Assembly (NCBI GenBank): GCA_944320785.1
Contig: CALUIR010000013.1
Span: forward strand, 1 to 63,884
Source: an uncultured Bacteroidaceae bacterium
GTDB lineage: Bacteria; Bacteroidota; Bacteroidia; Bacteroidales; Bacteroidaceae
DNA length: 63,884 nt
Reading direction: 5' to 3'
A program made the position numbers and the translations under genes. This document shows positions 38,643 through 55,353 of this stretch, one piece after another (positions within the stretch are counted from its first letter, which is position 1; each line of letters begins with the position of its first letter). The notes under the pieces are model-generated. The model worked only from the letters and a program-made list of their open reading frames with translations, did not search any database and was not told the DNA's origin.

Positions 38643-38793
38643 CGGGGAGAAAACTTCGGCCCGGCCGCGCGGGAAGTCCTGTCCAGCCGCGCAAAAACTT
38701 CATCCTTAGGCTGAGGATGTGCATCCTTAAGCTAGAGATGTGCATTTTTAGGCTAAGGATGTGTATCTTTAGGCTAAAGATAAAGAAGTTGGC
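38643..38793. repeat. four palindromes, 21-bp period, in a dispersed element (copy 1)
   Basis: Units of the kind ATCCTTAGGCTGAGGAT follow each other every 21 bp from 38702 to about 38781, joined by GTGC or GTGT. The block from 38643 aligns without gaps to 55203-55353: both begin CGGGGAGAAA and end in GATAAAGAAGTT. In the array part (38701-38791) I count 9 differences in 91 bases. The block lies in the 396-bp gap before the OmpR-type regulator. The remaining part of the gap shows no gene. Confidence 0.88.
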
Positions 38794-38959
38794 GGCATGA
38801 AGCTGGTTTCTTGCACGGGCAGGTGGAAGTTTTTTCCCGCATGCCCCTTCCCGTCTGCCTGCTTTCCCCGGAAGAATTAATGAGGCGCAATCCAGTTTTT
38901 TTCCAGAATTAATTGCTTTCTTTGCATGCAAGCAGTTTCATTAAAATAATGCGCGCCTT

Positions 38960-39640
38960 ATGAAGATATTGGTAGTGGAAGACGAACTCAGCCTTCAGAA
39001 AATGGTGAAAGACTCGTTGGAACGGGAACATTTCGTGGTGGAATGCGCGTCGGATTTCCCTTCGGCGATGTTGAAAATCAATGATTACGATTACGACTGC
39101 ATCCTGTTGGACATCATGTTGCCCGGCGGGAGCGGGCTTTCCATCCTTGAGGAACTGAAGCGCATGCGCAAGCGCGAGAGCGTCATCATCATTTCCGCGA
39201 AGGATTCTTTGGAGGACAAGGTGCTGGGTCTCGACCTTGGCGCCGATGACTATCTGGCCAAGCCTTTCCATCTGGCCGAGCTGAACGCGAGGGTCAAGTC
39301 GCTGCTACGGCGCAAACAGGCGGGCGGCGACACAAGCATCGTCCTGGGCAACCTGGCGGTGTATCCCGACCTGCGCACGGCCAGCATCGGCGGGAAGGAA
39401 CTCCAATTGAACCGGAAGGAATTCGACCTCCTGTATTACTTTGCCAGCAACCCGAACCGGCTGATGAACAAGACTTCGTTGGCCGAGTCGGTGTGGGGCG
39501 ACAACATCGACCAAGCAGACAGCTTGGATTTCATTTACTCGCAGGTGAAGAACTTGCGGAAGAAAATGAAGCAGGCCGGTGCCACGCCGGAAATCAAGGC
39601 GGTCTATGGCTTCGGCTACAAGCTTGTGTTGGAAGACTGA
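38960..39640 (+). CDS. OmpR/PhoB-family response regulator
   Basis: A 226-residue response regulator. The receiver domain has Glu7-Asp8, the phospho-acceptor Asp51 (Leu-Leu-Asp-Ile-Met) and Lys in Ala-Lys-Pro-Phe (near 101). A winged-helix DNA-binding domain (residues ~130-226) ends Tyr-Gly-Phe-Gly-Tyr-Lys. The histidine kinase follows 16 bp downstream. It resembles RprY of Bacteroides by family, but I cannot say it is the ortholog. Its likely target is the PepSY-like gene at 41020, which has an 11-bp direct repeat of the type OmpR/PhoB proteins bind. Confidence 0.93.
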   Translation: MKILVVEDELSLQKMVKDSLEREHFVVECASDFPSAMLKINDYDYDCILLDIMLPGGSGLSILEELKRMRKRESVIIISAKDSLEDKVLGLDLGADDYLAKPFHLAELNARVKSLLRRKQAGGDTSIVLGNLAVYPDLRTASIGGKELQLNRKEFDLLYYFASNPNRLMNKTSLAESVWGDNIDQADSLDFIYSQVKNLRKKMKQAGATPEIKAVYGFGYKLVLED

Positions 39641-39656
39641 AACCCGCCTGCCGCCG

Positions 39657-40934
39657 ATGAGACTTATCCATTACGCCAACCGGAACCTTTCCGTCCTGCT
39701 GCTCGTCCTCATGGGCGTTTGGGGGACGCTCTTTTACTTCACCATCATCGATGAAGTGATGGACGAGACGGACGACACTTTGGAAAACTACCGGGAAATC
39801 GTGGTCGGGAAGATTTTGGATGACCCTGATATCCTGATGACCGAAGACCGCATCCTCCACAGTTATGCCCTCCGCCCGCTGAGCCTCGATGAGGCGCTGG
39901 ACTATAAAGTGCGTTTCTATGATTCGGAAGTTTACATTGAGACCGAGGACGAATATGAGCCGGTGCGCGTCATGCGCTCCTGTTTCCTTGCCCCCGATGA
40001 CCGTTTCTACGAACTGACGTTGCGCATCTCTACCGTGGAGCGCGACGACATGGTGCGGGCCATCTTCTGGTACCTGCTCGTGCTTTACGTGGTGCTGCTT
40101 CTTTGCGTGACGGTAGGCACCCGCATGGTGCTGAAGAAAGTGTTCGTCCCCCTGCAACGCCTGCTGGCATGGTTCGACCGCGTGACGCCGGGCAAGCCCG
40201 TCCCTCCGTTGGACAATGAGACGAAGGTCTCCGAGTTTGCCAAACTGAACAAGGCCGCCGCGGCCATGAGCTTCAGGAGCCAGAAAGCATACGAGGAGCA
40301 GAAGCGGTTCATCGAGAATGCCTCCCACGAGTTGCAGACCCCGCTTGCCATTGCACGCGGCAAGCTGGAACTGTTGGCAGAGAGCGAGGGGCTGACCGAA
40401 CGGCATTTGCAGGACATCGATGAACTGTACCGCACTTTGGGGCGCGCTGTCAAGCTGAACAAGTCGCTCCTGCTGCTTTCGCGCATCGACAACGGGCAGT
40501 ACCCGGACAGCAAGCCGTTGGATTTGGGCAGCATCGCCAAAGAAACTCTTGCCGACTTGCTGGATATCTACGAGAGCCGACGGATACAGGCATCGATCGA
40601 AGATCACGCCCCTTGCCAAGTGGAAATGAACGAATCCCTTGCCCATGTGCTGCTCACCAACCTGCTGAAGAATGCCATTGTGCATAATGAAGTGGGCGGC
40701 AGGCTGCGCCTCGTGTTGGGCAAAGCTTCCATAGAGGTGGCCAATTCCGGGGAAACACCCTTGGATGCGGAAAAGATATTCCGCCGTTTCTACCGTGCGG
40801 ACCTGTCCAAGAAAGAATCCACAGGTTTGGGATTGGCTATCGTGAAGTCCATCTGTGATTTATACGGCATCCGCCTTTCCTATGCCTGCAAGGAAGGCAT
40901 GCACCGCTTCTCGTTAAAATTTGCAAAACCGTAG
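39657..40934 (+). CDS. sensor histidine kinase
   Basis: A 425-residue kinase. Two transmembrane helices (about residues 9-30 and 135-160) enclose a ~100-residue periplasmic sensor with many acidic residues. HAMP-like and HisKA regions follow, with the phospho-His in Asn-Ala-Ser-His-Glu-Leu-Gln-Thr-Pro (near 226). The ATPase part has the N box Leu-Leu-Lys-Asn-Ala-Ile-Val-His-Asn and a Gly-Leu-Gly-Leu-Ala-Ile-Val G box. Glu-rich sensing and PepSY-like partner genes suggest a cation or envelope signal, which is inference. I chose the ATG at 39657 rather than in-frame 39579, which overlaps the regulator. Confidence 0.93.
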   Translation: MRLIHYANRNLSVLLLVLMGVWGTLFYFTIIDEVMDETDDTLENYREIVVGKILDDPDILMTEDRILHSYALRPLSLDEALDYKVRFYDSEVYIETEDEYEPVRVMRSCFLAPDDRFYELTLRISTVERDDMVRAIFWYLLVLYVVLLLCVTVGTRMVLKKVFVPLQRLLAWFDRVTPGKPVPPLDNETKVSEFAKLNKAAAAMSFRSQKAYEEQKRFIENASHELQTPLAIARGKLELLAESEGLTERHLQDIDELYRTLGRAVKLNKSLLLLSRIDNGQYPDSKPLDLGSIAKETLADLLDIYESRRIQASIEDHAPCQVEMNESLAHVLLTNLLKNAIVHNEVGGRLRLVLGKASIEVANSGETPLDAEKIFRRFYRADLSKKESTGLGLAIVKSICDLYGIRLSYACKEGMHRFSLKFAKP

Positions 40935-40947
40935 AGGCAGGGCGGTT

Positions 40948-40969
40948 TTTCCTAAATCTTTCCTAAATC
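40948..40969 (+). promoter_or_regulatory. 11-bp direct repeat, probable OmpR-type operator
   Basis: TTTCCTAAATC occurs twice head to tail (40948-40958 and 40959-40969). This 11-bp tandem form is the known binding pattern of OmpR/PhoB-family dimers. It lies where a -33 element would be, 6 bases before the -7-like sequence, between the kinase gene and the first PepSY-like gene. Confidence 0.7.
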
Positions 40970-40975
40970 GTGCCG

Positions 40976-40983
40976 GATATTTG
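40976..40983 (+). promoter_or_regulatory. -7-like element GATATTTG
   Basis: One mismatch to TAnnTTTG. No good -33 element; the direct repeat occupies that place, as expected for an activator-dependent promoter. Confidence 0.45.
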
Positions 40984-41019
40984 CATCATAAACATTAACC
41001 CCATTAAAAATTATAGATT

Positions 41020-41463
41020 ATGAAAAAGATTTTAGCAGTTTTGGCAGTAGCAGTAGCAAGTGTGCAAATGGCGTTCGCAGACCATGACGTAGTGACAAGA
41101 GACGAGAGCAGATTGCCGGTAGCGGCAAGGGAAACCATTAAGAAGAACTTCCCGGATGCGAAGATTTCTTATATCAAGATTGAAAAAGACTTCTTCCAGT
41201 CAGCAAATTACGAAACAACCCTGACCAATGGAATGGAAATTGATTTCAATAGCAAGGGCGATTGGATTGAAGTGGACTGCAAGAGGCAGGCAGTGCCAGC
41301 AGGGTTTATTCCGGCCACCGTCAAGGAATATGTGGAAACAAATTTCCCCACTGTGCTGATTGTGAAGATAGAACGTGGTCGTAAGGGCTACAGTATCGAG
41401 ATGAACAACGGCTTGGATGCGGATTTCGATACGGCCGGGATGTTCTTGAGGTTGGATGACTGA
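41020..41463 (+). CDS. PepSY-like exported protein
   Basis: A 147-residue protein with a signal peptide (residues 1-20, ending Met-Ala-Phe-Ala). The mature part has two similar beta-alpha units, Pro-Val-Ala-Ala-Arg-Glu-Thr-Ile-Lys-Lys-Asn-Phe-Pro-Asp-Ala and Pro-Ala-Thr-Val-Lys-Glu-Tyr-Val-Glu-Thr-Asn-Phe-Pro, the hallmark of PepSY-like (DUF2874) proteins of Bacteroidota. The function is not established; periplasmic location is likely. It follows the kinase gene after 85 bp, behind the direct repeat, so it is probably the main target of the system. Confidence 0.88.
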   Translation: MKKILAVLAVAVASVQMAFADHDVVTRDESRLPVAARETIKKNFPDAKISYIKIEKDFFQSANYETTLTNGMEIDFNSKGDWIEVDCKRQAVPAGFIPATVKEYVETNFPTVLIVKIERGRKGYSIEMNNGLDADFDTAGMFLRLDD

Positions 41464-41474
41464 CCATTAAAAAC

Positions 41475-42329
41475 ATGAATGCTATGAAGACCTTGAAGAC
41501 TTTGTTCGTGCTTTCATTGTGTGCCGTTCTTTGGGCGGCATGCGATGACGATAACCACCGTGTTGCCAATCCTGCTGTCCAGACGGCTTTTGACGAGATG
41601 TTTCCGGGCATATCCCGTGTGGATTGGGACAGAGAGCAGGGATACTATGTGGCTGAGTTCCGCGAAAGTGGCCGGGAGAAATCCGTTTGGTTCGACTTGA
41701 ACGGCGTTTGGATGCTGACAGAGACGGACGTGCCTGTGTCTGAGTTGCCCCAAGCCATATTGGCCTCCATCCAGTCCGGGGAGTATGCCGGATGGCGGAT
41801 TGAAGATGTGGACTATATCGAACGGAGGGACATGGAGCCGGTGTATGTGGTGGATATGGAATTGGGCGAGCAGGATGTTGATTTGCATTATTCTGTGGAT
41901 GGACACCTGTTGCAGGCCGTCACGGGCAACGGCGACCAGCCCATGCAGCCGGATGTGTTGACCGGTAACATCAAGCAAGCCGTGCAAGCCAAATATCCGT
42001 CGGCCAAGATATTGGACATCGACCGGGAAGCTGGTTATGTGGAAGTGGAAGTGTGGTACGATAATACCTACTTTGATATGATTCTGGATTCGGACTGCAA
42101 TTGGGTTCAGAGCGTGTATGAAATCTTTTGGCAGGAGGTTCCTGATGCTGTGAAAGCGGCTTTTGCAGCAGACGGTTATGCCTTTAATGCAAGGGAGGAT
42201 GATATAGACATGATCAAGCGTCCCGGTGCAGATGGCATGGATGTCACTTCCTATCGTATTGAACTGGACCGCGAGCCTCGTGATATTGTCCTTTATTATA
42301 CGGAAGAAGGCGGAAAAGCTGAGATTTGA
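41475..42329 (+). CDS. PepSY-like lipoprotein
   Basis: A 284-residue lipoprotein. The lipobox Leu-Trp-Ala-Ala-Cys puts the lipidated Cys at residue 23. It is followed by acidic Asp-Asp-Asp, so it could be kept at the inner membrane by the known +2 Asp rule of E. coli, though this rule is not shown for Bacteroidota. Several PepSY-like units follow (Ala-Val-Gln-Ala-Lys-Tyr-Pro-Ser-Ala-Lys and Val-Lys-Ala-Ala-Phe). An in-frame ATG at 41484 gives a normal shorter signal. It starts 11 bp after the first PepSY-like gene and is part of the same operon. Confidence 0.85.
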   Translation: MNAMKTLKTLFVLSLCAVLWAACDDDNHRVANPAVQTAFDEMFPGISRVDWDREQGYYVAEFRESGREKSVWFDLNGVWMLTETDVPVSELPQAILASIQSGEYAGWRIEDVDYIERRDMEPVYVVDMELGEQDVDLHYSVDGHLLQAVTGNGDQPMQPDVLTGNIKQAVQAKYPSAKILDIDREAGYVEVEVWYDNTYFDMILDSDCNWVQSVYEIFWQEVPDAVKAAFAADGYAFNAREDDIDMIKRPGADGMDVTSYRIELDREPRDIVLYYTEEGGKAEI

Positions 42330-42350
42330 GTTTCATTATTTGTTTTACGG

Positions 42351-42391
42351 GCAGGGCGGCGTGCCTCTTTTGGGAGGATGTGCCGCCCTGC
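42351..42391. terminator. bidirectional hairpin between converging genes
   Basis: GCAGGGCGGC (42351-42360) pairs with GCCGCCCTGC (42382-42391); a smaller CCTC/GAGG stem lies inside. It separates the PepSY-like operon from sdaA. Confidence 0.75.
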
Positions 42392-42400
42392 TGCGTTCCT

Positions 42401-43612
42401 TTACATTTGTTCGTAGTCTTTGGCAAGCCCTCCTTCGCCGGTTTCTTTGTAGAGGGACGGTAGGTCGTGTCCGGTTTGTTTCATGACTTCCACTACTTTG
42501 TCGAATGAGACACGGTGCATTCCGTCGGTGAAAGAGGCATATAGGTTGGCATCCAAAGCTCGTGCGGCAGCGTAAGCATTTCTTTCGATGCAGGGGATTT
42601 GCACTAAGCCACAGACCGGGTCGCAGGTCATGCCGAGGTGATGCTCCAATCCCATTTCCGCAGCGTATTCAATTTGTGACGGGCTTCCTCCGAACAGTTG
42701 GTTCGCGGCCGCAGAGGCCATGGCGCAAGCCACACCGACTTCTCCTTGGCATCCTACTTCTGCCCCGGATATGGATGCGTTTGTTTTCACGATGTTGCCG
42801 ATTAACCCGGCAGTAGCTAAAGCACGGAGAATGCGTGTGTCACTGAAGTCCCGGCTTTTTTGCAAATGGTAGAGGACGGCGGGCATTACCCCGCAAGACC
42901 CGCATGTCGGTGCGGTGACAATCTTTCCGCCGGAGGCATTTTCTTCGCTGACGGCAAGCGCATATGAGAAAACAAGACCTCGTGAACGGAGCGATTCCCT
43001 GTACCCGGTGGCACGGATGTGGTAGGTGGCGGCTTTCCGGCGCAGGTTGAGCGGGCCGGGCAGCACGCCTTCCTGTTCTAATCCTCGTTCAATGGCCTCT
43101 TTCATGGTTTTCCATACTTGAAAAAGGTAATCCCAAATGTCTTTGTCTTCGCATTCCTTTACGTACTCCCAATAGCTTTTTCCTGTCTTCTCGCACCAAT
43201 GCAGGATTTCGCTCATTTTAGTCATGGAGTAAATGTCCTCCATGGGCGTTTCTTCTATTTCTCTGTCTTTCTCGGCCAAAGCTCCCCCTCCGATGCTGTA
43301 CACGGTCCAGTTATCTGTCAGTTTCCCGTTGCCGTCATACGATGCGAAGGTCATGGCATTAGGATGGAACGGGAGGAAAGTCTTGGGCTGCCATGCGATT
43401 TCCACTTCGGCTTGTGGCTGCAGGACGCTGAGGATGGCCATGTCGGTCAAATGCCCTTTGCCGGTGGCGGCGAGGCTGCCGTAGAGTGTCACTTTGAACC
43501 GCTTTGCTTCAGGGTGTTTGGCCAAGAAGATTCCGGCGGCTTTCTTGGGTGCCATGGTGTGGCTGCTGGAAGGGCCGTTGCCTATGCGGTATATTTCCCG
43601 TATTGTTTTCAT
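42401..43612 (-). CDS. sdaA: L-serine ammonia-lyase (iron-sulfur type)
   Basis: A 403-residue single-chain L-serine dehydratase, turning serine into pyruvate and ammonia. The N-terminal beta domain has Gly-Pro-Ser-Ser-Ser-His-Thr-Met (residues 14-21). The catalytic alpha domain has cysteines in Thr-Cys-Gly-Ser-Cys-Gly, Gly-Cys-Gln-Gly-Glu-Val and Cys-Asp-Pro-Val-Cys-Gly, expected ligands of the 4Fe-4S cluster. It starts 11 bp after the mutS2 stop and is probably in one transcript with it. Length is normal. Confidence 0.95.
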   Translation of the reverse strand: MKTIREIYRIGNGPSSSHTMAPKKAAGIFLAKHPEAKRFKVTLYGSLAATGKGHLTDMAILSVLQPQAEVEIAWQPKTFLPFHPNAMTFASYDGNGKLTDNWTVYSIGGGALAEKDREIEETPMEDIYSMTKMSEILHWCEKTGKSYWEYVKECEDKDIWDYLFQVWKTMKEAIERGLEQEGVLPGPLNLRRKAATYHIRATGYRESLRSRGLVFSYALAVSEENASGGKIVTAPTCGSCGVMPAVLYHLQKSRDFSDTRILRALATAGLIGNIVKTNASISGAEVGCQGEVGVACAMASAAANQLFGGSPSQIEYAAEMGLEHHLGMTCDPVCGLVQIPCIERNAYAAARALDANLYASFTDGMHRVSFDKVVEVMKQTGHDLPSLYKETGEGGLAKDYEQM

Positions 43613-43623
43613 ATATGTTTTGT

Positions 43624-46116
43624 TTAGTTTAAATCGACAACTGTGATTCCGGCGCCTCCGAATTGTACATGTTCGTCTTGGAAATGCCGTACTCCCGGGA
43701 CGCTTGACAGGTAATTGCGGATAAGCGTACGGAGTATGCCGCTGCCTGTGCCGTGCAGGATGCGGACTCTGGGGATGCCTAATAGGATAGCATCATCGAT
43801 ATAGTAGGTGATGGCTTGGATGGCTTCATCCCCTTTCATGCCCCTCACGTCAATGTCTTGCTTGAAGTTCAGTTTCTTTTCATAGACTTGGTCTTGTGTC
43901 TGTGTGCTTACGAAAGACACGGAGGCTTTTTTCCTGCTTGGGGCTTCTCCCGCAGGCACTGGCTCTAAGCGTTTCAGTTTGACGGTCGTTTTCAGCATGC
44001 CGAAAGCCACGGTCGCGTTGTCGCTGTTTATTTCGATGACATCTCCAATGGAGGTTTGGCCTTTCAGCCTCACATGGTCTCCTACGGCTATGGGGGGGCT
44101 TGGCTGTGGCTTGGGTGGCAATGAAGTGGAAGTGGCTTGTTCTTTCTTTTCTTTTTTCCGCTTTTGCTTTTCTTTGATTTTCTCCATTTTGCGCAATAGT
44201 TTTTCTTCTTGCTGTTCTTGCTCAATCGCAGCAATGGATTTGCGGAAGTTTTCCAATTCCTGGCGTGCCGTTCTGGTTTTTTCCTTTTCGGCTTGTGCTT
44301 CTTTGATGGTGCGGATGGTGTTCTCCACTTTGGCATTGGATTCTTGCAGTATCTGTTCTGCCTTTTCTTTCGCCTGCCGGAGAATCTCTTTCCGGGAGGC
44401 TTCCAATTCTTTGGCATCTTTTTCGTAGCGGGCCATGATTTCTTCCATCTGCTTTTCTTTTTGGCGGATGTTCTGGCGTTTGTTCTCCCAGTAGCGTTTG
44501 TCGCGCACGATGTCTTGGAGGTACTTGTCGGCGTTGATGTAGTCGCTGCCTACGATTTGCGCGGCATCTTCTATGACTTCTTCCGGCAATCCTATCTTGC
44601 GGGCTATTTCTACGGCAAACGAGCTGCCTGGGTTTCCTATCTGTAGTTGGAAGAGGGCTTGCATCAGGTGGCGGTCGTACAGCATGGCGGCGTTGGCTAT
44701 TCCTTCATGGTCTTCGGCGAAATGCTTCAGGTTCTGGTAGTGGGTAGTGATGATGCCGAAAGTTTGTTTTTCGTTGAGGCGCTTCAGCACGGCTTCGGCA
44801 ATGGCACCTCCAATCTGAGGTTCTGTGCCGCTCCCGAACTCGTCGATGAGGATGAGGCTTTTGCTGCTGCACGACTTCATCATCGTTTTCATGTTGGTGA
44901 GGTGAGAGGAGTAGGTGCTTAGTTCGTCTTCGATGGATTGTTCGTCGCCGATGTCGATGAATATGTCTGAAAAGATGCCGGCGCGGCTCCGTTCGTGTAC
45001 AGGGATCAGCAGGCCGCATTGCAGCATGTATTGCAGCAGTCCTACGGTTTTCAGGCAGACGGATTTCCCTCCAGCGTTCGGCCCGGAGATGATGAGTATC
45101 CGTTGGTGGGAGTTCAGTTCAATGTCCAAGGGGACGACGCTTTTGTTGTGCCTGGCAAGGGATATTTGCAGCAGTGGGTGTATGGCTCCCGTCCAGTCGA
45201 TGAGGGGTTGGTCTTCGAGGGATGGCTTTCGGGAATGCGTGTGGAGGGCGAAAGAGGCTTTGGCGCGGATGAAGTCGATTTCGGCCAAGAAGTTGTATGA
45301 TTGCAGCATGCTGGGTATCATGGGGCGGATGGTGTCCGACAGTTCTGTCAGGATGCGTATGATTTCCCGCCTTTCTTCATTTTCCAGTTCGCGCACATGG
45401 TTGTTGGCTTCCACCACTTCTTCCGGCTCGATGAACAGGGTTTTCCCGCTGGCCGATTCGTCATGCACGATGCCTTTTATCTTGCGTTTCAGTGCCGGGG
45501 CGATGGGGATGACCAGCCGCCCGTCGCGCAGGGTAGGTGCCACGTCCTTGTCCACGTAGCCTTCTGACTGGGCGTTGCGGAGTATCTGGGCGAGGTTCCG
45601 GGAGATGCCGTTGGTGGTGCGTGCCAGTTCCTGCCTTATCCGTGCCAGTTCGGCAGACGCGCTGTCTCTTATTTTCCCGAAGTCATCGATGATACGGCTG
45701 ATTTGCTGGATGAGACGGGGGAAAACGGCCACGTCTTTGGCCAGTTCTTGCAGGTTGGGGTAGGGGGAGGGCGTGTCTGTATCCGGGGATAAGAAGGCCA
45801 CGATGTCGCGTATTGTTTCCAGTGACCGGCGCAGGTCGAACACTTCCTGCTCGTCCAGATAAAGCCCTTCTACTTTGATGCGGCTGAGTGACGGGCGCAC
45901 GTCGAAGAAGTATTGGCCGGGGAACGGGTTTCCTTCCTCCATGATGCGGGCAAATTCGCAGGTCTGGTCCAGTTTCTCGCTTATCTTGCCGAATGAAACG
46001 AGGAATTTCATCTCATCTGCTTTCCCTTTCCCCAATGTGCTGAGACACCTTTCTTTTATCAGGTTGCGTATTTCGTCGAATCCAATCTTTTGTTCAAAAT
46101 TCTGAGGGTAAATCAT
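43624..46116 (-). CDS. mutS2: endonuclease MutS2
   Basis: An 830-residue MutS2 protein. The core and clamp domains come first, then Walker A Gly-Pro-Asn-Ala-Gly-Gly-Lys-Ser (near 343) and Asp-Glu-Phe-Gly-Ser-Gly-Thr-Glu-Pro (near 420). A Lys/Glu-rich coiled coil spans ~510-680. An Smr nuclease domain ends the protein, with Asp-Val-Arg-Gly-Met (near 757) and His-Gly-Thr-Gly-Ser-Gly-Ile-Leu. MutS2 acts in suppression of homologous recombination and, in some bacteria, rescue of collided ribosomes. It shares its transcript with sdaA. Confidence 0.95.
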   Translation of the reverse strand: MIYPQNFEQKIGFDEIRNLIKERCLSTLGKGKADEMKFLVSFGKISEKLDQTCEFARIMEEGNPFPGQYFFDVRPSLSRIKVEGLYLDEQEVFDLRRSLETIRDIVAFLSPDTDTPSPYPNLQELAKDVAVFPRLIQQISRIIDDFGKIRDSASAELARIRQELARTTNGISRNLAQILRNAQSEGYVDKDVAPTLRDGRLVIPIAPALKRKIKGIVHDESASGKTLFIEPEEVVEANNHVRELENEERREIIRILTELSDTIRPMIPSMLQSYNFLAEIDFIRAKASFALHTHSRKPSLEDQPLIDWTGAIHPLLQISLARHNKSVVPLDIELNSHQRILIISGPNAGGKSVCLKTVGLLQYMLQCGLLIPVHERSRAGIFSDIFIDIGDEQSIEDELSTYSSHLTNMKTMMKSCSSKSLILIDEFGSGTEPQIGGAIAEAVLKRLNEKQTFGIITTHYQNLKHFAEDHEGIANAAMLYDRHLMQALFQLQIGNPGSSFAVEIARKIGLPEEVIEDAAQIVGSDYINADKYLQDIVRDKRYWENKRQNIRQKEKQMEEIMARYEKDAKELEASRKEILRQAKEKAEQILQESNAKVENTIRTIKEAQAEKEKTRTARQELENFRKSIAAIEQEQQEEKLLRKMEKIKEKQKRKKEKKEQATSTSLPPKPQPSPPIAVGDHVRLKGQTSIGDVIEINSDNATVAFGMLKTTVKLKRLEPVPAGEAPSRKKASVSFVSTQTQDQVYEKKLNFKQDIDVRGMKGDEAIQAITYYIDDAILLGIPRVRILHGTGSGILRTLIRNYLSSVPGVRHFQDEHVQFGGAGITVVDLN

Positions 46117-46274
46117 GTTGCTGGTCTAATTGGCAGGCAAATGTACGATTATATTTTGATATTGGCTCATGCCGTCTGCGTTTTGTGGCATTCCCTCTTG
46201 CGGCACGACAAGTGTGGGTCGCAGGGAGGGAAGTTCATTTTGGCAGGGTGGGAAACCTGGCTTGGCCGTGCGGA

Positions 46275-46306
46275 AACTTCATCTTTAGGCTAAAGATGAA
46301 GAAGTT
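46275..46306. repeat. single-unit copy of the ATCTTTAGGCTAAAGAT palindrome
   Basis: CTTCATCTTTA (46277-46287) pairs perfectly with TAAAGATGAAG (46291-46301), and AAC..GTT extends the ends. The central 17-mer ATCTTTAGGCTAAAGAT is identical to the last unit of the arrays at 38702 and 55262. The 337-bp gap between mutS2 and the tRNA also holds the tRNA promoter and nothing else I can support. Confidence 0.8.
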
Positions 46307-46382
46307 GTCCGTATGAAACGGGTTTGTCTTGCGGGTAAACGGGAGAATCTTGTCCGCTGCCCGCTATTTTTCCCAAAATATG

Positions 46383-46413
46383 TTTGCTGCTTTCAAATAA
46401 AGTAGTACCTTTG
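46383..46413 (+). promoter_or_regulatory. complete promoter of tRNA-Ser (TGA)
   Basis: TTTG (46383-46386), exactly 19 bases, then TACCTTTG (46406-46413). Full match to the Bacteroidota consensus. Confidence 0.8.
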
Positions 46414-46453: not shown

Positions 46454-46538
46454 GGAAAGGTGGTAGAGTGGTCGATTACAGCGGTCTTGAAAACCGCCGT
46501 ACGGAGACGTACCGGGGGTTCGAATCCCTCCCTTTCCG
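46454..46538 (+). tRNA. tRNA-Ser (TGA)
   Basis: An 85-nt class II tRNA. GGAAAGG (46454-46460) pairs with CCTTTCC; anticodon TGA at 46488-46490 in a loop closed by GCGGT/ACCGC; long variable arm; GGGTTCGAATCCC T-arm. CCA is not encoded. Confidence 0.95.
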
Positions 46539-46560
46539 CACGGTTGCCGTCAATATGGCC

Positions 46561-47989: not shown

Positions 47990-47992
47990 CGT

Positions 47993-48616: not shown

Positions 48617-48656
48617 TTGGACAGAAGCTGTATCTTTGTGGCTGATTAATTACTAA

Positions 48657-49670: not shown

Positions 49671-50078
49671 ATGAACATTCTGAAATTCCTCCTAATCTGG
49701 CTCTGCTTTATTCCGCTAGCAATCCTTAATGGAGGATTGAGGGAATATGTATTGCTCAGGGCGATTGGTGAAAAGTGGGCATTATCTGTCAGCGGAATCC
49801 TATTAAGCGCGTGTATTTTTCTGATAACTTGGTCGCTGCTGCCTCGGATAACGAAAGTCCATACTTCCAAAGATTGCTGGCTGACCGGTATATGCTGGGC
49901 TTTGCTGACGGTTAGTTTTGAATTTGCCGCAGGATTGGCAAATGGTAATACAATGGCGGAACTTCTCACCGCTTATAATCCATTGACCGGAAATCTTTGG
50001 CTGATAGTCTTGGCAACAACATTATTGTCGCCAATTATAGTAAGAAAGATTCCTAAAAGGGCAGGTATATCAACGTGA
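49671..50078 (+). CDS. small integral membrane protein
   Basis: A 135-residue protein with four hydrophobic helices (about residues 3-24, 35-57, 68-90 and 105-123) and short loops. I do not recognise the family with certainty. The ATG follows directly on the TGA of the double GNAT gene, so it is translated from the same operon. The operon carries three acetyltransferases, so a link to their product is possible but not shown. Confidence 0.7.
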   Translation: MNILKFLLIWLCFIPLAILNGGLREYVLLRAIGEKWALSVSGILLSACIFLITWSLLPRITKVHTSKDCWLTGICWALLTVSFEFAAGLANGNTMAELLTAYNPLTGNLWLIVLATTLLSPIIVRKIPKRAGIST

Positions 50079-50117
50079 ACTCGGGATAAAAGGATAAAGT
50101 ATTTATTTGAAAATAAT

Positions 50118-50427
50118 GGATATATTGGAAAAAAACTGTTCGAGAGCCTCTTCTTTGGCGGCATACAATTGATAATCAAAGTGAAGAATAACATGAAGAA
50201 CTTCCTGATGAGCATAGCGGACAAAATCCTGCTGAGAAAACGCGCTTTGATAGAAACGGTTAATGACGAGTTGAAGGGCATCGCGCAGATTGAACCTTCC
50301 AGATCCCGTTCTTTAATAGTTCCATAGCCAACTTGCTTTCTGCCATATAGCAGCATACTGCTTTTTTGAAAGGAAGTCTACCATTGATCCTTATTTTGTC
50401 AGAAACGGGCAGCTTACCCTGTTTTGA
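50118..50427 (+). pseudogene. C-terminal remnant of an IS982-family transposase
   Basis: About 100 codons with two frame changes. Frame one reads Gly-Tyr-Ile-Gly-Lys-Lys-Leu ... Lys-Arg-Ala-Leu-Ile-Glu-Thr-Val-Asn-Asp-Glu-Leu-Lys, the conserved IS982 region with its catalytic Glu. After a shift near 50310 it reads Ser-Ile-Ala-Asn-Leu-Leu-Ser-Ala-Ile and a stop; after a second shift near 50350 it reads Ala-Tyr-Cys-Phe-Phe-Glu-Arg-Lys and ends at a natural TGA at 50425-50427. The 5' two thirds are missing. It fills most of the 451-bp gap between the membrane protein gene and argR. Confidence 0.82.
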
Positions 50428-50497
50428 ATTGCGTAAATTAATATTAAATAATGCGAAATATTGGAATGTTATTCATGGTACATCCTTTTTGATTGCA

Positions 50498-50505
50498 TAT
50501 ATTTG
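50498..50505 (+). promoter_or_regulatory. -7 element TATATTTG of arg operon
   Basis: Exact TAnnTTTG, 25 bases before the argR start. The -33 region is not clear. Confidence 0.55.
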
Positions 50506-50513
50506 CAGACAAA

Positions 50514-50527
50514 AGTATAATTATGCA
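50514..50527 (+). promoter_or_regulatory. possible ARG box (autoregulation)
   Basis: AGTATAATTATGCA has a perfect ATAATTAT centre and one good half site of the ArgR-box pattern (TGxATAATTATxCA). It lies just after the predicted transcription start and 2 bases before the argR ATG. A bound repressor there would block the whole operon. Confidence 0.35.
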
Positions 50528-50529
50528 AC

Positions 50530-51003
50530 ATGAAGGATAAGAATAACCGGCTGGACGCCATAAAAATGATTATATCAAGCAAAGAGATAGGAAGCCAAGA
50601 GGAATTGCTTCAGGCACTTTCTAAAGAAGGATTCCAGTTAACGCAAGCCACTCTGTCGCGAGACCTCAAACAGTTGAAAGTGGCCAAGGCGGCCAGCATG
50701 AACGGCAACTATGTGTACGTTCTGCCCAACAACACGATGTACAAACGAATGGTGGAACCGCAAAGTGCCACGGAGATGATGATGAACAACGGCTTCAAGT
50801 CCATCGAGTTCTCGCGTAATATTGCCGTCATCAAGACGCGTCCTGGTTATGCCAGTAGTTTGGCTTACGATATTGATGTGCATGACATTTATGAGATCCT
50901 CGGCACCATTGCCGGTGATGACACGATTATCCTTGTGTTGCGCGAGGAAGCGGCACGTGAGGCTCTGAAACAGGCTCTATCGGGAATCATACCTAATATA
51001 TAA
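50530..51003 (+). CDS. argR: arginine repressor ArgR
   Basis: A 157-residue ArgR family regulator. The N-terminal winged helix has Ile-Gly-Ser-Gln-Glu-Glu-Leu and Leu-Thr-Gln-Ala-Thr-Leu-Ser-Arg-Asp-Leu-Lys (near residues 38-48), the recognition helix. The C-terminal part has Ile-Leu-Gly-Thr-Ile-Ala-Gly-Asp-Asp-Thr-Ile (near 125), which binds arginine and forms the hexamer. It is the first gene of the arginine operon, so it probably controls itself and the genes that follow. A possible ARG box overlaps its leader. Confidence 0.94.
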   Translation: MKDKNNRLDAIKMIISSKEIGSQEELLQALSKEGFQLTQATLSRDLKQLKVAKAASMNGNYVYVLPNNTMYKRMVEPQSATEMMMNNGFKSIEFSRNIAVIKTRPGYASSLAYDIDVHDIYEILGTIAGDDTIILVLREEAAREALKQALSGIIPNI

Positions 51004-51019
51004 GTAACAGGCAAGAAAA

Positions 51020-51580
51020 ATGGAAGTGCAGGAAATAGATGTCATGGTTGCCGATGTCTCGCATGAGGCATACGTGGATATCATATTGGAGACCATCACC
51101 AATGCTGCTAAGGTGCGCGGTACGGGCATTGCCAAGCGTTCACACGAGTATGTGGCCCAGAAGATGAAAGAAGGCAAGGCGATAATAGCCCTTTGTGGCG
51201 ATGAGTTTGCTGGTTTCTGTTATATCGAGAGTTGGGGCAATAAGACGTATGTGGCCAATTCCGGGCTTATCGTGGCCGAGAAATACCGGGGGCAGGGGTT
51301 GGCCAAGCGCATCAAGAAGGCTGCCTTCACTCTTTCGCGGCTTCGTTGGCCGCATGCCAAGTTGTTCGGGCTGACCAGTGGTGCCGCTGTCATGAAAATC
51401 AACACGGAGTTAGGTTACGTTCCTGTCACCTTCGCGCAGTTGACGGACGATGAAGCTTTTTGGAAAGGATGCGAAGGCTGTGTCAACCACGACGTGTTGG
51501 AACGCACGGGCAGGAAGTACTGTATCTGTACGGCCATGCTTTATGATCCGGCGCAGCACCAAGGAAGGTCAAACGATTAA
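51020..51580 (+). CDS. GNAT enzyme of the arg operon, probable N-acylglutamate synthase
   Basis: A 186-residue GNAT protein with the acetyl-CoA loop Arg-Gly-Gln-Gly-Leu-Ala-Lys-Arg (near residue 95). It lies between argR (16 bp) and argG (13 bp), a place where I recall a GNAT gene in Bacteroides as well. The first step of the pathway acylates glutamate; because the transcarbamylase in this window is of the N-succinylornithine type, the enzyme may use succinyl-CoA. That substrate is inference. It is not homologous to E. coli ArgA over the kinase-like part. Confidence 0.82.
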   Translation: MEVQEIDVMVADVSHEAYVDIILETITNAAKVRGTGIAKRSHEYVAQKMKEGKAIIALCGDEFAGFCYIESWGNKTYVANSGLIVAEKYRGQGLAKRIKKAAFTLSRLRWPHAKLFGLTSGAAVMKINTELGYVPVTFAQLTDDEAFWKGCEGCVNHDVLERTGRKYCICTAMLYDPAQHQGRSND

Positions 51581-51593
51581 TAATACGCAAGAA

Positions 51594-52802
51594 ATGGGAA
51601 AGAAGAAAGTAGTAGTGGCATTTAGTGGCGGGCTGGACACCTCGTTTACGGTCATGTATCTCGCCAAGGAGAAAGGATATGAAGTGTATGCGGCTTGCGC
51701 CAATACCGGAGGTTTTAGCAAGGAGCAGTTGGAGGCCAACGAGGCGAACGCCTATAAGTTGGGTGCGGTGAAGTATGTGACGCTTGATGTAACCCGCGAG
51801 TATTATGAGAAGAGCCTCAAATACATGATCTATGGCAATGTGTTGCGTAACGGCACCTATCCTGTGTCTGTCAGTTCCGAGCGCATCTTCCAAGCACTGG
51901 CCATTGCGCGTTATGCCAACGAAATAGGTGCCGATGCCATTGCCCATGGCTCCACAGGTGCCGGCAACGACCAAGTGCGCTTTGACATGACTTTCCTAGT
52001 CATGGCACCGGGCATGGAAATTATCACCTTGACCCGCGACATGGCTTTGAGCCGTCAGGAGGAGATAGATTACCTGAATAAGCATGGATTTGCCGCCGAC
52101 TTCGCCAAGCTGAAGTATTCCTATAATGTGGGAATATGGGGTACCAGCATCTGCGGAGGCGAGATATTGGATTCCGCGCAAGGCTTGCCTGAGACCGCTT
52201 ACCTGAAACATTGCACGAAGGAAGGCACTGAATTGCTGAAGCTTACGTTTGAGCAGGGCGAATTGAAGGCTGTGAATGGTGAGCGTTTGGACGACCCTGT
52301 CAAGGCTATCCAGGAAGTGGAGGAAATCGGGGCGGCCTACGCTATTGGCCGTGACATGCATGTGGGTGACACCATCATCGGCATCAAAGGGCGCGTGGGC
52401 TTTGAGGCTGCTGCCCCCATGCTCATTATTGGTGCGCATAAGTTCTTGGAAAAGTACACACTGAGCAAATGGCAGCAGTATTGGAAAGACCAAGTGGCTA
52501 ACTGGTACGGGATGTTCCTGCATGAGAGCCAGTACTTGGAACCGGTGATGCGCGACATCGAGGCCATGCTTGCATCTTCGCAGCGCAATGTCAACGGCAC
52601 TGCCATCTTGGAACTGCGCCCCTATGGTTTCCATGCTGTTGGCGTGGCGAGCGCAGACGATTTGGTGAAGAACAAGTTCGGCGAATACGGGGAAATGCAG
52701 AAAGGCTGGACGGCGGAGGATGCCAAAGGTTTCATCAAAGTCCTTTCCACGCCGCTCCGTGCTTACTATGCCGGGCACAAAGATGAATTGGATAACATTT
52801 GA
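51594..52802 (+). CDS. argG: argininosuccinate synthase
   Basis: A 402-residue enzyme that joins citrulline and aspartate with ATP. The P-loop Ala-Phe-Ser-Gly-Gly-Leu-Asp-Thr-Ser lies at residues 9-17; Tyr-Pro-Val-Ser-Val-Ser-Ser-Glu-Arg and Gly-Ser-Thr-Gly-Ala-Gly-Asn-Asp-Gln-Val-Arg-Phe follow near 90-130. In-frame upstream start 51450 overlaps the GNAT gene and is not used; the ATG at 51594 is chosen because the family starts shortly before the P-loop. It is co-transcribed with argR, the GNAT gene, pspC-like, argC and argD. Confidence 0.95.
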   Translation: MGKKKVVVAFSGGLDTSFTVMYLAKEKGYEVYAACANTGGFSKEQLEANEANAYKLGAVKYVTLDVTREYYEKSLKYMIYGNVLRNGTYPVSVSSERIFQALAIARYANEIGADAIAHGSTGAGNDQVRFDMTFLVMAPGMEIITLTRDMALSRQEEIDYLNKHGFAADFAKLKYSYNVGIWGTSICGGEILDSAQGLPETAYLKHCTKEGTELLKLTFEQGELKAVNGERLDDPVKAIQEVEEIGAAYAIGRDMHVGDTIIGIKGRVGFEAAAPMLIIGAHKFLEKYTLSKWQQYWKDQVANWYGMFLHESQYLEPVMRDIEAMLASSQRNVNGTAILELRPYGFHAVGVASADDLVKNKFGEYGEMQKGWTAEDAKGFIKVLSTPLRAYYAGHKDELDNI

Positions 52803-52814
52803 AACGGCATAACC

Positions 52815-53027
52815 ATGGATGAACCCAAAAAACTCAGACGCCCCCGGACGGGCAGGATGCTGTCAGGCGTATGTGCCGGGCTGGCTGATTTCTTCGATCT
52901 GGATGTCACGCTGGTGCGTGCCATCTATGCGCTGGCCACTGTGTTCACCGCCTTTGCCGGCGTGATTATTTACATTATTCTGCTGGTGGTCATTCCTGAA
53001 GAAAAGAATCGTTATTTCCAAAATTAA
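52815..53027 (+). CDS. PspC-domain small membrane protein
   Basis: A 70-residue protein with the PspC signature: Lys-Lys-Leu-Arg-Arg ... Gly-Arg-Met-Leu-Ser-Gly-Val-Cys-Ala-Gly-Leu-Ala-Asp-Phe-Phe and a transmembrane helix (about residues 38-62). PspC domains belong to envelope-stress systems, but stand-alone PspC proteins of Bacteroidota have no clear role. Its position inside the arginine operon (12 bp after argG, 3 bp before argC) is odd and probably co-transcribed. Confidence 0.88.
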   Translation: MDEPKKLRRPRTGRMLSGVCAGLADFFDLDVTLVRAIYALATVFTAFAGVIIYIILLVVIPEEKNRYFQN

Positions 53028-53030
53028 GCC

Positions 53031-53999
53031 ATGATAAAAGTAGGAATCATAGGCGGCGCGGGCTATACGGCCGGCGAACTCATCCGCCTGCTCATCAACC
53101 ACCCGGAGGTGGAAATCGTTTTCATCAACAGCCAGAGCAATGCTGGAAACTTTGTGGCTGACGTGCATGAAGGACTGTATGGCGAGACGGACCTCTGTTT
53201 TACCGGCAAGCTGCTGTTGGAGGACATTGACTGCCTGTTCTTCTGCACGGCCCATGGCGACACGCGGAAGTTCCTGGAAAGCCATGCCGTGCCGGAGGAT
53301 TTGAAGATTGTGGACCTTTCCATGGATTACCGCATTGGCGACGGGAACCATGACTTTGTGTACGGGCTGCCAGAACTGAACCGCCGTGCCATCTGCCATA
53401 GCAAGCACGTGGCCAATCCAGGATGTTTTGCCACCTGCATAGAACTGGGCTTGCTCCCGTTGGCAAAACATTTGATGCTCAACAGCACCATTTCTGTCAA
53501 TGCCATCACGGGCAGCACGGGTGCCGGAGTGAAGCCGGGGCCGACCAGCCATTTCAGTTGGCGCAACGGAAATATCAGCATTTACAAGCCGTTTGCCCAT
53601 CAGCATGTGCCTGAAATCAGGCAGGCGCTCGGCCAGTTGCAGAACAGTTTCAACGCCGACATCGATTTCATCCCGTACCGGGGGAATTTCACGCGGGGCA
53701 TATTCGCTACCATTGTGACCCGGAACAAAGTGTCAATAGAAGAAATAACCCGGATCTATGGTGAGTATTATGAGGAAGATTCATTTGTGCATGTCGTGGA
53801 CAAGGAAATAGACTTGAAGCAGGTGGTCAACACGAACAAATGCCTGTTGCACTTGGAGAAACATGGCGACAAGCTGCTCATTGTCTCCTGTATTGACAAT
53901 CTGCTGAAAGGAGCCAGCGGGCAAGCGGTGCATAACATGAACTTATTGTTTAATCTGGAAGAGACAGTCGGGTTGCGGCTGAAACCTTCCGCTTTTTGA
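53031..53999 (+). CDS. argC: N-acetyl(succinyl)-gamma-glutamyl-phosphate reductase
   Basis: A 322-residue NADP-dependent reductase. The Rossmann motif Gly-Ile-Ile-Gly-Gly-Ala-Gly-Tyr-Thr-Ala-Gly-Glu is at residues 4-15, and the catalytic Cys lies in Asn-Pro-Gly-Cys-Phe-Ala-Thr (near 130). It reduces the acylglutamyl phosphate to the semialdehyde. Length is normal for the short ArgC type. It is followed after 12 bp by argD. Confidence 0.94.
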   Translation: MIKVGIIGGAGYTAGELIRLLINHPEVEIVFINSQSNAGNFVADVHEGLYGETDLCFTGKLLLEDIDCLFFCTAHGDTRKFLESHAVPEDLKIVDLSMDYRIGDGNHDFVYGLPELNRRAICHSKHVANPGCFATCIELGLLPLAKHLMLNSTISVNAITGSTGAGVKPGPTSHFSWRNGNISIYKPFAHQHVPEIRQALGQLQNSFNADIDFIPYRGNFTRGIFATIVTRNKVSIEEITRIYGEYYEEDSFVHVVDKEIDLKQVVNTNKCLLHLEKHGDKLLIVSCIDNLLKGASGQAVHNMNLLFNLEETVGLRLKPSAF

Positions 54000-54011
54000 A
54001 CCGGGACAGGG

Positions 54012-55133
54012 ATGGAATTATTCAATGTATATCCGCTTTTTGACGTGAACATCGTCAAAGGGAAAGGTTGCCGTGTGTGGGACGACAAAGGCACGGAGTA
54101 TCTGGATTTTTATGGCGGGCATGCCGTCATATCCATCGGCCATGCCCATCCGCATTATGTGGAAAGCATCAGCCGGCAAGTGGCGGAATTGGGCTTTTAT
54201 TCCAATTCTGTGGTCAACAAGCTGCAGCAGCAGCTTGCAGGGCGGCTCGGCAGGGCATCGGGCTGCGAGGGTTATTCGCTGTTCATGGCCAACTCAGGGG
54301 CGGAAGCTAATGAGAACGCACTCAAGTTGGCTTCGTTCCATAATGGGCGGAAGCGCGTCGTCGCTTTTAAAAAATCCTTCCATGGGCGTACTTCCTTGGC
54401 GGTGGAGGCGACGGACAATCCTCGCATCGCGGCGCCCGTCAACCAGAACGGGCGTGTCACTTTCCTTGCCCTCAACGATGTGGAGGCCATGCGGAAGGAA
54501 CTGGGGAAAGGCGACGTGTGCGCCGTCATCATCGAAGGCATCCAAGGAGTCGGGGGTATCCAGGTGCCGGATGCCGCTTTCCTGCAGGAGTTGCGCGAAT
54601 GCTGTACGGCTACAGGGACGGTGCTGGTTTTGGATGAGATACAGTCCGGCTATGGCCGAAGCGGCAAGTTCTTTGCGCATCAGCACGCCGGCATCTGGCC
54701 GGACATCATCACGGTGGCCAAGGGTATCGGCAACGGGTTCCCGATGGGGGCGGTGTTGATTGGCCCGATGTTCACGCCCCGTTATGGCGAGCTGGGCACC
54801 ACTTTCGGAGGCAACCACTTGGCTTGCGCGGCTGCGTTGGCGGTGCTGGATGTCATGGAGGAAGAACGCTTGGTGGAGAATGCGGCGCAGGTCGGCGGGT
54901 ATTTGCTCCATGAACTGGGGAAAATGCCTGGCGTGAAGGAGGTGCGCGGGATGGGCCTGATGATTGGGATGGAGTTTGAACAGCCCGTGAAGCCGTTGCG
55001 TGATCGGCTGGTTTATGAGAAGAACGTGTTCACGGGTGCCAGCGGCAACAACGTCTTGCGCCTGCTCCCGCCCCTGTGCCTGACCATGGCTGAGGCAGAC
55101 ATGTTCATCGAGCGCCTTTCGGAAGCCCTGTAA
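54012..55133 (+). CDS. argD: acetylornithine/succinylornithine aminotransferase
   Basis: A 373-residue class III PLP enzyme. Met-Ala-Asn-Ser-Gly-Ala-Glu-Ala-Asn-Glu-Asn-Ala (near residue 95), Asp-Glu-Ile-Gln-Ser-Gly-Tyr-Gly-Arg (near 215) and the PLP lysine in Ala-Lys-Gly-Ile-Gly-Asn-Gly (near 237) are visible. It moves an amino group from glutamate to the acylated semialdehyde. With the succinylornithine-type transcarbamylase below, its natural substrate is probably the succinyl form. It is the last gene of the arg operon; a dispersed repeat follows. Confidence 0.94.
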   Translation: MELFNVYPLFDVNIVKGKGCRVWDDKGTEYLDFYGGHAVISIGHAHPHYVESISRQVAELGFYSNSVVNKLQQQLAGRLGRASGCEGYSLFMANSGAEANENALKLASFHNGRKRVVAFKKSFHGRTSLAVEATDNPRIAAPVNQNGRVTFLALNDVEAMRKELGKGDVCAVIIEGIQGVGGIQVPDAAFLQELRECCTATGTVLVLDEIQSGYGRSGKFFAHQHAGIWPDIITVAKGIGNGFPMGAVLIGPMFTPRYGELGTTFGGNHLACAAALAVLDVMEEERLVENAAQVGGYLLHELGKMPGVKEVRGMGLMIGMEFEQPVKPLRDRLVYEKNVFTGASGNNVLRLLPPLCLTMAEADMFIERLSEAL

Positions 55134-55202
55134 GGGATTGGCACTTGTGCCGATGATGCCCTGCCGGACGGCGGGGCGCACACGGGGTGAAATCCAGCTT
55201 GG

Positions 55203-55353
55203 CGGGGAGAAAGGCTGGGCTTGCCCGTGTGGAATGTTCTGTTCAGCCATGCAACTTCTTTATCCTTAGGCTGAGGATGTGTATCCTTAGCCTAAGGATG
55301 TGCATCTCTAGCCTAAGGATGTGTATCTTTAGGCTAAAGATAAAGAAGTTGCC
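55203..55353. repeat. four palindromes, 21-bp period, in a dispersed element (copy 2)
   Basis: Four units, three full 21-bp periods from 55262 and a last partial one, with cores ATCCTTAGCCTAAGGAT. CAACTTCTTTATC (55252-55264) and GATAAAGAAGTTG (55339-55351) are a perfect 13-bp outer inverted repeat. The block aligns without gaps to 38643-38793. The remaining part of the 427-bp gap between argD and proC holds the proC promoter and nothing else I can support. Confidence 0.88.

Follow-up and report, generated by a model that had tools for sequence, protein, structure and literature searches.

The window analysed here (a whole stretch of 63,884 nt from an uncultured Bacteroidaceae bacterium) carries three copies of an intergenic element of about 225 bp, found 61 times in the host genome, whose core nearly always holds four palindromic sites set between modular flanks. 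The sites keep only a purine/pyrimidine (R/Y) pattern, and at several of these loci a sister species carries another four-site core; both features suggest landing strips for a putative DNA-binding protein. With a probability of about 0.5, we read the element as a phased array of sites for a putative oligomeric DNA-binding protein, linked to promoters and having its cores exchanged when the specificity of that protein changes.

Within the window, element 1 has a core (38,702–38,781; hereafter A-type) of four 17-bp palindromes (ATCYYYARSYTRRRGAT) joined by RYRY spacers with a 21-bp period. On its left lie about three GC-rich, R/Y-coded modules of 22 bp (38,627–38,701; flank model match at 38,635–38,704) and on its right modules starting with AAAGAAGTTGGCGGCATGAA (38,782–38,856; match at 38,777–38,847), the outer edges of both flanks being approximate. 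Element 3 consists of left modules (55,187–55,261; match at 55,194–55,264), an A-type core of four units with both ends of the AAAGAA type (55,262–55,341) and right modules (55,342–55,416; match at 55,337–55,409), again with approximate outer edges. The first-pass annotation had reported two intergenic blocks that align without gaps, with four palindromes each at 21-bp spacing, and both observations stand: the blocks of elements 1 and 3 align gap-free over 162 nt (81% identical), and their 80-bp cores are 90% identical. The third locus with a single unit, also noticed then, is equally real, as this unit (46,281–46,297) matches the fourth unit of either window array letter for letter; it remains between flank modules (element 2, 46,206–46,372; matches at 46,219–46,285 and 46,293–46,364). 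On the minus strand, a TAnnTTTG promoter box (−7 type) of the left-hand gene (38,595–38,602) lies 99 bp from the core edge of element 1 (0 mod 11), and the gap between another box (46,138–46,145) and the edge of the lone unit in element 2 is 135 bp (3 mod 11). Among Rfam-type curated RNA families, only two tRNAs reached the gathering score in the window and none matched an array, so that such a family was rejected as the identity of the array.

The abundance of the unit is not due to chance: allowing at most one mismatch, its pattern matches 224 times forward and 226 times in reverse over the 2.57-Mb genome (G000, 84% complete), versus 0 matches for the backwards-read control pattern. The genome yielded 61 elements, window copies included, with no called gene overlapping an array, which disposes of the possibility that only three copies exist or that they fall at random in genes. 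Both neighbouring genes were called for 61 of 62 chains, and none of these codon-scored genes overlaps an array; the element is thus dispersed, intergenic and non-coding, as proposed from the window. Some arrays are traversed by bare open reading frames. In 52 of the 61 elements, the 17-bp palindromes, set 21 bp apart, number exactly four, and none of the elements found exceeds this number. Each flank has about three 22-bp modules, and the two flanks are mirror-symmetric. The modular flanks, the R/Y code and the fixed number of four are all additions to the first-pass annotation, which had instead imagined the unit number growing from one to four. That direction is not borne out: loss is likelier than the beginning of growth, because the elements with fewer than four units retain their flanks on both left and right, and because four units dominate here and elsewhere (37 of 42 elements read in other genomes). 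Viral carriage of the arrays was discarded, the exact dimer pattern having 0 matches in viral contigs.

A-type copies keep the purine or pyrimidine identity of their bases rather than the letters. Comparisons among copies yielded 19,518 transitions and 2,587 transversions, 2,434 of the latter at the unit centre, i.e., a ratio of 128:1 outside it, and 26 arrays from four other genera gave 834:31 at degenerate positions. Two pairs of orthologous A-type arrays (A/A) shared with a congener (G001, 85% complete) differ, over 88 degenerate and spacer sites, by 37 transitions and no transversion, and over 64 fixed sites by 1 change, the reference between the two genomes being 17.5% transitions and 19.0% transversions at fourfold sites. 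The strict code is a property of the A-type, since the units of a second, B-type core have three positions open to all four letters. It is looser in the arrays of G375 and G244 (4 transversions in 36 spacer sites, 2 in 12 centres), and 44 transversions separate the fixed positions of the G093 arrays, summed over 21 pairs. The strongest couplings join adjacent bases (GG is avoided at positions 13–14 and the central spacer step is TG or CA in 129 of 156 cases), as expected of DNA-shape readout.

In this genome, a −7 promoter box is found on 55 of the 78 gene-facing sides of arrays, and the distances of these boxes to the array follow an 11-bp phase (R = 0.61; best period 11.2 bp; 0/20,000 Monte Carlo), a phasing seen neither for gene starts (R = 0.18, n = 78) nor for gene ends (R = 0.21, n = 36). 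As no promoter phasing appears at 22 bp (R = 0.12), the number of flank modules alone does not yield the 11-bp signal. For the B-type arrays of the congener, phasing is weak (15 boxes; R = 0.38 at 11.0 bp and 0.53 at 11.2 bp), and in other genomes 18 boxes are unphased (R = 0.18 at 11.0 bp, 0.40 at 11.2 bp; Monte Carlo 668/5,000), where the arrays have no promoter bias (10 of 39 lie between convergent genes). The neighbour genes are unrelated, their 83 proteins falling into 152 Pfam families, each present in at most two of them, so that no regulon is visible and a regulon defined by neighbour function was rejected.

Among relatives, the R/Y code combined with the four-unit format is patchy (14 of 399 genomes). 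In the congener, 12 orthologous elements have a different core between orthologous flanks; like the A-type, this B-type core is built of four units with a 21-bp period, its spacer belonging to the YRYRYR class as well, and the host genome itself also has one B-type core (at L366). Compared in register and outside the spacers, A and B cores are 0.253 identical at 10 orthologous places versus 0.246 at non-orthologous ones (permutation 4,068/20,000), while the orthology of their 75-bp flanks emerges from gapped alignment (0/100,000 permutations). When the 40 bp next to the cores were compared without gaps, orthologous places showed no clear excess over non-orthologous ones (0.46 and 0.46 on the left, 0.49 and 0.43 on the right), in part because some reversed B cores were 2–3 bases off register. 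Single elements are dispensable, given that four of six orthologous places met in the congener without selecting for an element show no array.

Under the reading that we favour, one 21-bp unit (two helical turns) would be one dimer site, with four consecutive dimers seated along a single face of the DNA in the core; the flank modules of 22 bp may bring the length covered by protein to about 225 bp. At most positions the putative protein would tell purines from pyrimidines, besides requiring a few fixed bases, leaving the copies free to drift by transitions. In this genome, the arrays lie upstream of promoters, at distances that keep a constant helical phase, and the bound protein would probably contact RNA polymerase or shape promoter DNA from there. 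A change in the specificity of the reader, or its takeover by another one, might then swap the four-unit core at numerous loci of a single lineage. Comparable phased operators are known for oligomeric regulators such as the Lrp/AsnC octamers and ArgR, whose paired ARG boxes are spaced by 21 bp. By analogy, the arrays may resemble them in their degenerate palindromes, on one DNA face with two-turn spacing, and their four dimer sites would match an octamer such as Lrp/AsnC; in contrast to these operators, the arrays occur in dozens of copies beside unrelated genes, with extended modular flanks and a lineage-wide core change. A bolder version, which we put forward only tentatively, is a genome-wide addressing system, largely purine/pyrimidine-read, with four phased palindromes per address in a modular frame by promoters; addresses would be rewritten in place, with the frame kept, upon a change of reader, so that sister species would end up with codes at shared loci that neither could read in the other.

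The differing cores might also bring to mind a short cassette, either mobile or copied from a template, that is placed between the flank modules by a putative recombinase or reverse transcriptase whose transition-prone copying would make each copy a fresh degenerate draw. This is rather unlikely in our opinion, even though genealogical signal is almost lacking (best pairwise identity of 0.925 over 1,326 pairs of arrays in this genome, versus a mean of 0.914 for 200 column shuffles) and the A/B core identity at orthologous places equals that at non-orthologous ones despite orthologous flanks. Degenerate positions of A/A orthologues also differ more (31 of 64, or 48%) than twofold sites (26.8%), and orthologous pairs are uneven (0/80 changes in one, 14 and 16 in two others), which looks episodic. 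However, the fixed positions remain fixed, so that selection would be required with a cassette too; the unit centres of the A/A orthologues agree at 8 of 8 positions, where wholesale rewriting would randomise them; degenerate transitions between G375 and G244 (16/96) match the neutral rate (14.8% at fourfold and 16.0% at twofold sites); and the enzyme remains putative. Somewhat less probable again is an old, non-autonomous MITE-like transposable element, spread and then inert, its palindromes being leftover transposase sites. Orthologous intergenic regions that differ in having the element (in one case 302 bp long in this genome vs. 117 bp in the congener), a copy number patchy across genera, the unrelated neighbour genes and the absence of promoter bias outside this genus would all agree with it. 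Yet no clear target-site duplication was visible by eye in the single short empty-site alignment (L238/L311), and the arrays read from five genomes include no near-identical young copies, the best identity in the four others being 0.81–0.86 among 6–7 arrays per genome, which, with the 0.925 observed here, led us to reject recent transposition. Moreover, purged transversions and a conserved number of four are unexpected of inert copies, as is a core that differs while its flanks stay orthologous.

Two further ideas came from the first-pass annotation and fare worse. A spreading hairpin, acting as transcribed RNA or single-stranded DNA (terminator, RNA stability element or attC-like site), is very improbable: the window cores do fold far better as RNA than shuffles (z = −6.2 and −9.1), though any palindrome array would, but none of five pairings tested (within units, between neighbouring units, over the whole array) has more Watson–Crick pairs than column shuffles, and such pairs are even rarer across units 2–3 (z = −5.0) and over the array (z = −6.0). 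Within units, G–T (144) and A–C (141) are about equally common, so that neither strand is preferred, and only 6 of the 61 arrays lie between convergent gene ends. The least probable is a REP/BIME element mobilised by a REP-associated tyrosine transposase (RAYT), to which high-copy intergenic palindromes of species-specific sequence would lend themselves. The A-type unit consensus bears neither a GTAG nor a CGTC tag and has no covarying stem, and the transposase domain Y1_Tnp (PF01797), detected in 6 of the 20 genomes searched, has a distribution that does not follow that of the arrays: it occurs in four array-bearing genomes (G014, G375, G244 and G005) and was not found in five others (G000, 84% complete; G001, 85%; G093, 94%; G023 and G313, both 99%). 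The third idea, a protein-binding array, is the one that fits best, given the lack of covariation, the R/Y constraint and the two-turn spacing, with a binding protein that is so far putative.

We found no published description of such arrays in the open literature. REP/BIME elements with RAYTs amount to tens to hundreds of regularly spaced intergenic palindromes per genome, for which protein binding was proposed (PMC2817692); the arrays share these traits and a species-specific sequence, but differ from that account in that no RAYT was found in several genomes carrying them, by lacking stem covariation and by their fixed four-unit core, modular flanks, R/Y code and differing cores in orthologous frames. 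The GTAG/CGTC-tagged REPs are described as stem-loops of 20–40 bp ending in either tag, the CGTC repeats being reported from several phyla (including Bacteroidetes) and seemingly lacking a dedicated transposase (PMC3733652); they too are dispersed palindromes, whereas the A-type unit is untagged and embedded in an architecture of about 225 bp. The STAR elements of staphylococci (PMC3532100) are interspersed intergenic direct repeats that expand and contract, with a locus-specific sequence and a number that does not follow phylogeny, both features being shared by the arrays, in which, unlike in STAR elements, units are palindromic and the number four is kept.

Dispersed bacterial palindromes are usually read as transposase-spread hairpins, and the arrays fit neither part of that description. 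Should a protein read them, Bacteroidaceae would possess an abundant DNA-binding factor that acts chromosome-wide and changes its specificity fast, and the arrays would provide ready bait for finding it. They would also offer a measured case of DNA recognition mostly limited to purine versus pyrimidine.

The three places that the first-pass annotation had reported in the window were all confirmed on re-reading, as four-unit cores at 38702-38781 and 55262-55341 and a single unit at 46281-46297. Across the assembly (G000: 2,571,181 bases, 50 contigs, 84% complete, the window being contig C13; the window gene at 43624-46116 has its closest relatives, 72–73% identical, in Bacteroides and other Bacteroidaceae), the unit pattern with at most one mismatch gives 224 and 226 matches on the two strands, and its backward control none. 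The element list, built from at least 100 listed pattern places by fetching 59 stretches and adding the window, comprises at least 61 elements with 62 unit chains, one element (L212) being split into a one-unit and a two-unit chain. Four units occur in 52 chains, one in five, two in three, three in two and more than four in none, and every four-unit core measures 80 bp. The core unit of this type (A) is ATCYYYARSYTRRRGAT plus an RYRY spacer, with a 21-bp period, and the spacer with its adjoining bases reads TRYRYA, i.e., it alternates pyrimidine and purine. Cores are bounded by AAAGAA-type ends or by GAA[G/C]TT; among the 52 four-unit cores, the AAAGAA-type end is found on one side only in 42, on both in six and on neither in four. 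The flanks, read from 48 of one kind and 33 of the other, are made up of roughly three modules on either side, repeating every 22 bp (TT doublets at 27-28, 49-50 and 71-72, CG in between). The complete element spans about 225 bp and is mirror-symmetric in purine/pyrimidine terms.

A sequence-only flank model trained on 30 flanks (28 from G000, two from the congener G001) has 109 hits in G000 and 31 in G001. It revealed a decayed core in a G000 stretch without any chain by the unit pattern (L197), an additional A array (L364) that lies where a contig ends, and some coreless flanks, and our element list is therefore incomplete. Flank-module matches for which no adjoining core was seen (L358, L359, L361, L362 and L363) are possibly remnants after core loss; one of them, L361, is orthologous to an element of G001 with another core type (B, L343). 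The single-unit element of the window has a tRNA-Ser(tga) gene (46454-46539) as its right-hand neighbour, starting 157 bp from the unit.

Compared within G000, the A copies differ by 19,518 transitions vs. 2,587 transversions, of which 2,434 lie at the unit centre; when the centre is excluded, the ratio is 128:1. Unit positions 2, 7, 11 and 16 are invariant in all 208 units. Genealogical signal among the copies is close to zero, since the best array pair (92.5% identical) barely exceeds the mean of 200 column shuffles (91.4%), and no young copies were seen among the G000 arrays. In 26 arrays from four other genera, where the best pairs are 81–86% identical, 834 transitions stand against 31 transversions at degenerate positions; fixed positions are less strict there, above all in genome G093 (44 transversions over 21 pairs). 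Two orthologous A pairs shared by G000 and G001 differ at degenerate and spacer positions by 37 transitions and no transversion over 88 sites, with 0/8 unit centres and 1/64 fixed positions changed, vs. 17.5% transitions and 19.0% transversions at four-fold sites and 26.8% transitions at two-fold sites of neighbouring genes (16 genes, 86% amino-acid identity). Three orthologous pairs from two other Bacteroidaceae genomes (G375 and G244) have 16 transitions and one transversion at 96 degenerate positions, with four-fold sites at 14.8% and 5.9%, respectively. At degenerate positions, transitions thus match or exceed the neutral rate, while transversions are removed. In this second genome pair, transversions reach 4/36 in spacers and 2/12 at centres, and the spacer is not guarded against them to the same degree; one of its array pairs (L280:4960-5039 and L281:5044-5123) is identical over 80/80 bp, and the two others differ at 14 and 16 positions.

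Folded as RNA, the window cores perform far better than shuffles, which follows from the units being palindromic. The RNA hairpin reading nevertheless fails on covariation (52 arrays, five pairings, 300 column shuffles), as Watson–Crick pairs are not in excess within units (z −1.3) or when unit 1 is paired with 2 and unit 3 with 4 (z −1.2). They are rarer than in the shuffles between units 2 and 3 (z −5.0), between facing half-sites (z −4.9) and over the array as a whole (z −6.0). Coupled position pairs at p < 0.01 number 26 out of 990 (mean of 4.4 and maximum of 10 in 20 shuffle sets), nine of which, including the strongest, are at most two bases apart and some others distant. GG at positions 13-14 is avoided (2/416 half-sites), and TG or CA forms the central step of 129/156 spacers. 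Moreover, the facing positions 14 of unit 2 and 4 of unit 3 are coupled in the G000 arrays (p = 2e-5) and, together with the deficit at facing half-sites, behave as if neighbours were required to differ. Altogether, these features fit a readout of the local shape of the DNA combined with, as we infer, selection against perfect inverted repeats.

None of 61 chains in G000 overlaps a gene by codon-scored calls, even though bare ORFs do cross some arrays. Thirty chains are flanked by divergent genes, 25 by tandem and six by convergent ones, against 41, 162 and 35 for all adjacent gene pairs of those stretches (arrays included). No common function is visible among the array-facing genes, no Pfam family being found in more than two of 83 proteins (first ≤400 residues of each). 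Between array and gene start, TAnnTTTG, the Bacteroides −7 box, is present on 55 of the 80 facing sides in G000 (four on the opposite strand, 3.8 on average in shuffles), 44 to 401 bp from the array edge. These distances are phased, with a best period of 11.2 bp (R = 0.61; 78 facing sides, L212 excluded) reached by 0/20,000 jittered data sets, and the phase agrees between left and right sides and between both kinds of core end; the seven boxes beside one- to three-unit arrays, taken alone, are not significant (p 0.11). In G000, phasing to the array is absent for gene starts (n = 78, R = 0.18) as well as for gene ends (n = 36, R = 0.21). Nor are the boxes phased at 22 bp (R = 0.12), so their phasing does not stem from a varying count of 22-bp modules. 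By rough ORF-based gene calls, arrays in other genomes lie between convergent genes in 10 of 39 cases (2 of the 39 arrays being from G001) and have a box on only 18 of 38 facing sides; these 18 boxes are not phased (R = 0.18 at 11.0, 0.40 at 11.2 and 0.45 at the best period of 11.6, matched by 668/5,000 simulations), which speaks against the promoter relation. Beside the B-type arrays of G001, the box is found on 15/23 sides, with R reaching 0.38 for a period of 11.0 (p 0.11) and 0.53 for one of 11.2 (p 0.014).

The flanks of G001 mostly surround this B-type core, made of four 21-bp units, RWYGNCGNCGNCRWY, whose spacers are TGTACA-like (20 fully read, one more at C11:98864 and one of two units in L354). 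The free positions of B are not restricted to purine or pyrimidine, since its copies differ by 1,544 transversions vs. 3,358 transitions, and some genealogy is kept, the best pair (86.9% identical) exceeding column shuffles (80.9%). By unit and dimer patterns, G001 has only two A loci, each with an A orthologue in G000 (L194/L288 and L230/L289). Twelve orthologous places, among them the window's core at 38702, hold A in G000 and B in G001 (A being one unit at L231 and B two units at L354), and a thirteenth has a decayed A opposite B (L197/L298). Non-spacer core identity in ten A/B pairs in register is 0.253 vs. 0.246 for non-orthologous pairs, and spacer agreement is 0.65 for both, while the summed gapped alignment scores of the flanks (11 pairs) exceed all 100,000 permutations, with the orthologue ranking first in 5/11; the frame has thus been kept and the core is different. 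Six orthologous G001 places met without selection for the element have no array in four cases (one of them truncated where the contig ends) and B in two. G000 itself has at least one four-unit B core (L366 ~1501-1571, C4:58940-59010), with other words in its flank modules, so both types coexist with one dominant per species. A BLAST search with a single B core as query gave no hit in the other 119 genomes of a family sample, but it also recovered just 7 of the ≥21 copies of G001 and hence overlooks many.

Readings as a REP element with its associated tyrosine transposase (RAYT) or as an inert MITE fail on tested features. In the reading we prefer, the two-turn spacing would place eight half-sites on one DNA face, the constant four would reflect a fixed assembly, e.g., four dimers, and free transitions with forbidden transversions would point to a putative protein reading purines and shape; the fixed helical distance to promoters in G000 may allow this protein to touch the transcription machinery. 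A change in specificity of the putative reader would then account for cores that differ while spacer class and frame are shared, and cassette rewriting of the cores is a serious rival reading. Our search of the open-access literature found no description of such arrays.

Within the family, the dimer pattern (≤3 mismatches) occurs in 14 out of 399 genomes (G000 included) and 7 out of 30 genera. The backward control has no match throughout, positive genomes range from a single match to 164 on one strand and 165 on the other, and sampled congeners of array-rich genomes are mostly without a match. In genomes other than G000, 42 distinct arrays were read (≤4 mismatches on extension, single units left out); 37 have four units, three have five, one has three and one has two, with a bias to full arrays as many loci are best hits of a four-unit query. 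Other tandem arrays of 21–24-bp units, several with four, were met seven times in other Bacteroidaceae (80 loci, 1.4 Mb), at L078:1318-1427, L104:159-273, L109:4720-4875, L114:18644-18727, L119:9606-9693, L125:9715-9806 and L137:22307-22394; their neighbouring units agree more in purine/pyrimidine (0.90–1.00) than in letters (0.73–0.94), and from these sequences the phenomenon may be family-wide. Finally, the window carries at 530-660 a distinct tandem-palindrome array of about five RACGGAYRCGYRTCC units with a ~22–23-bp period, inside which an open ORF ends (at 630); this kind has 17 matches at nine places in G000 and occurs at one place in G001.
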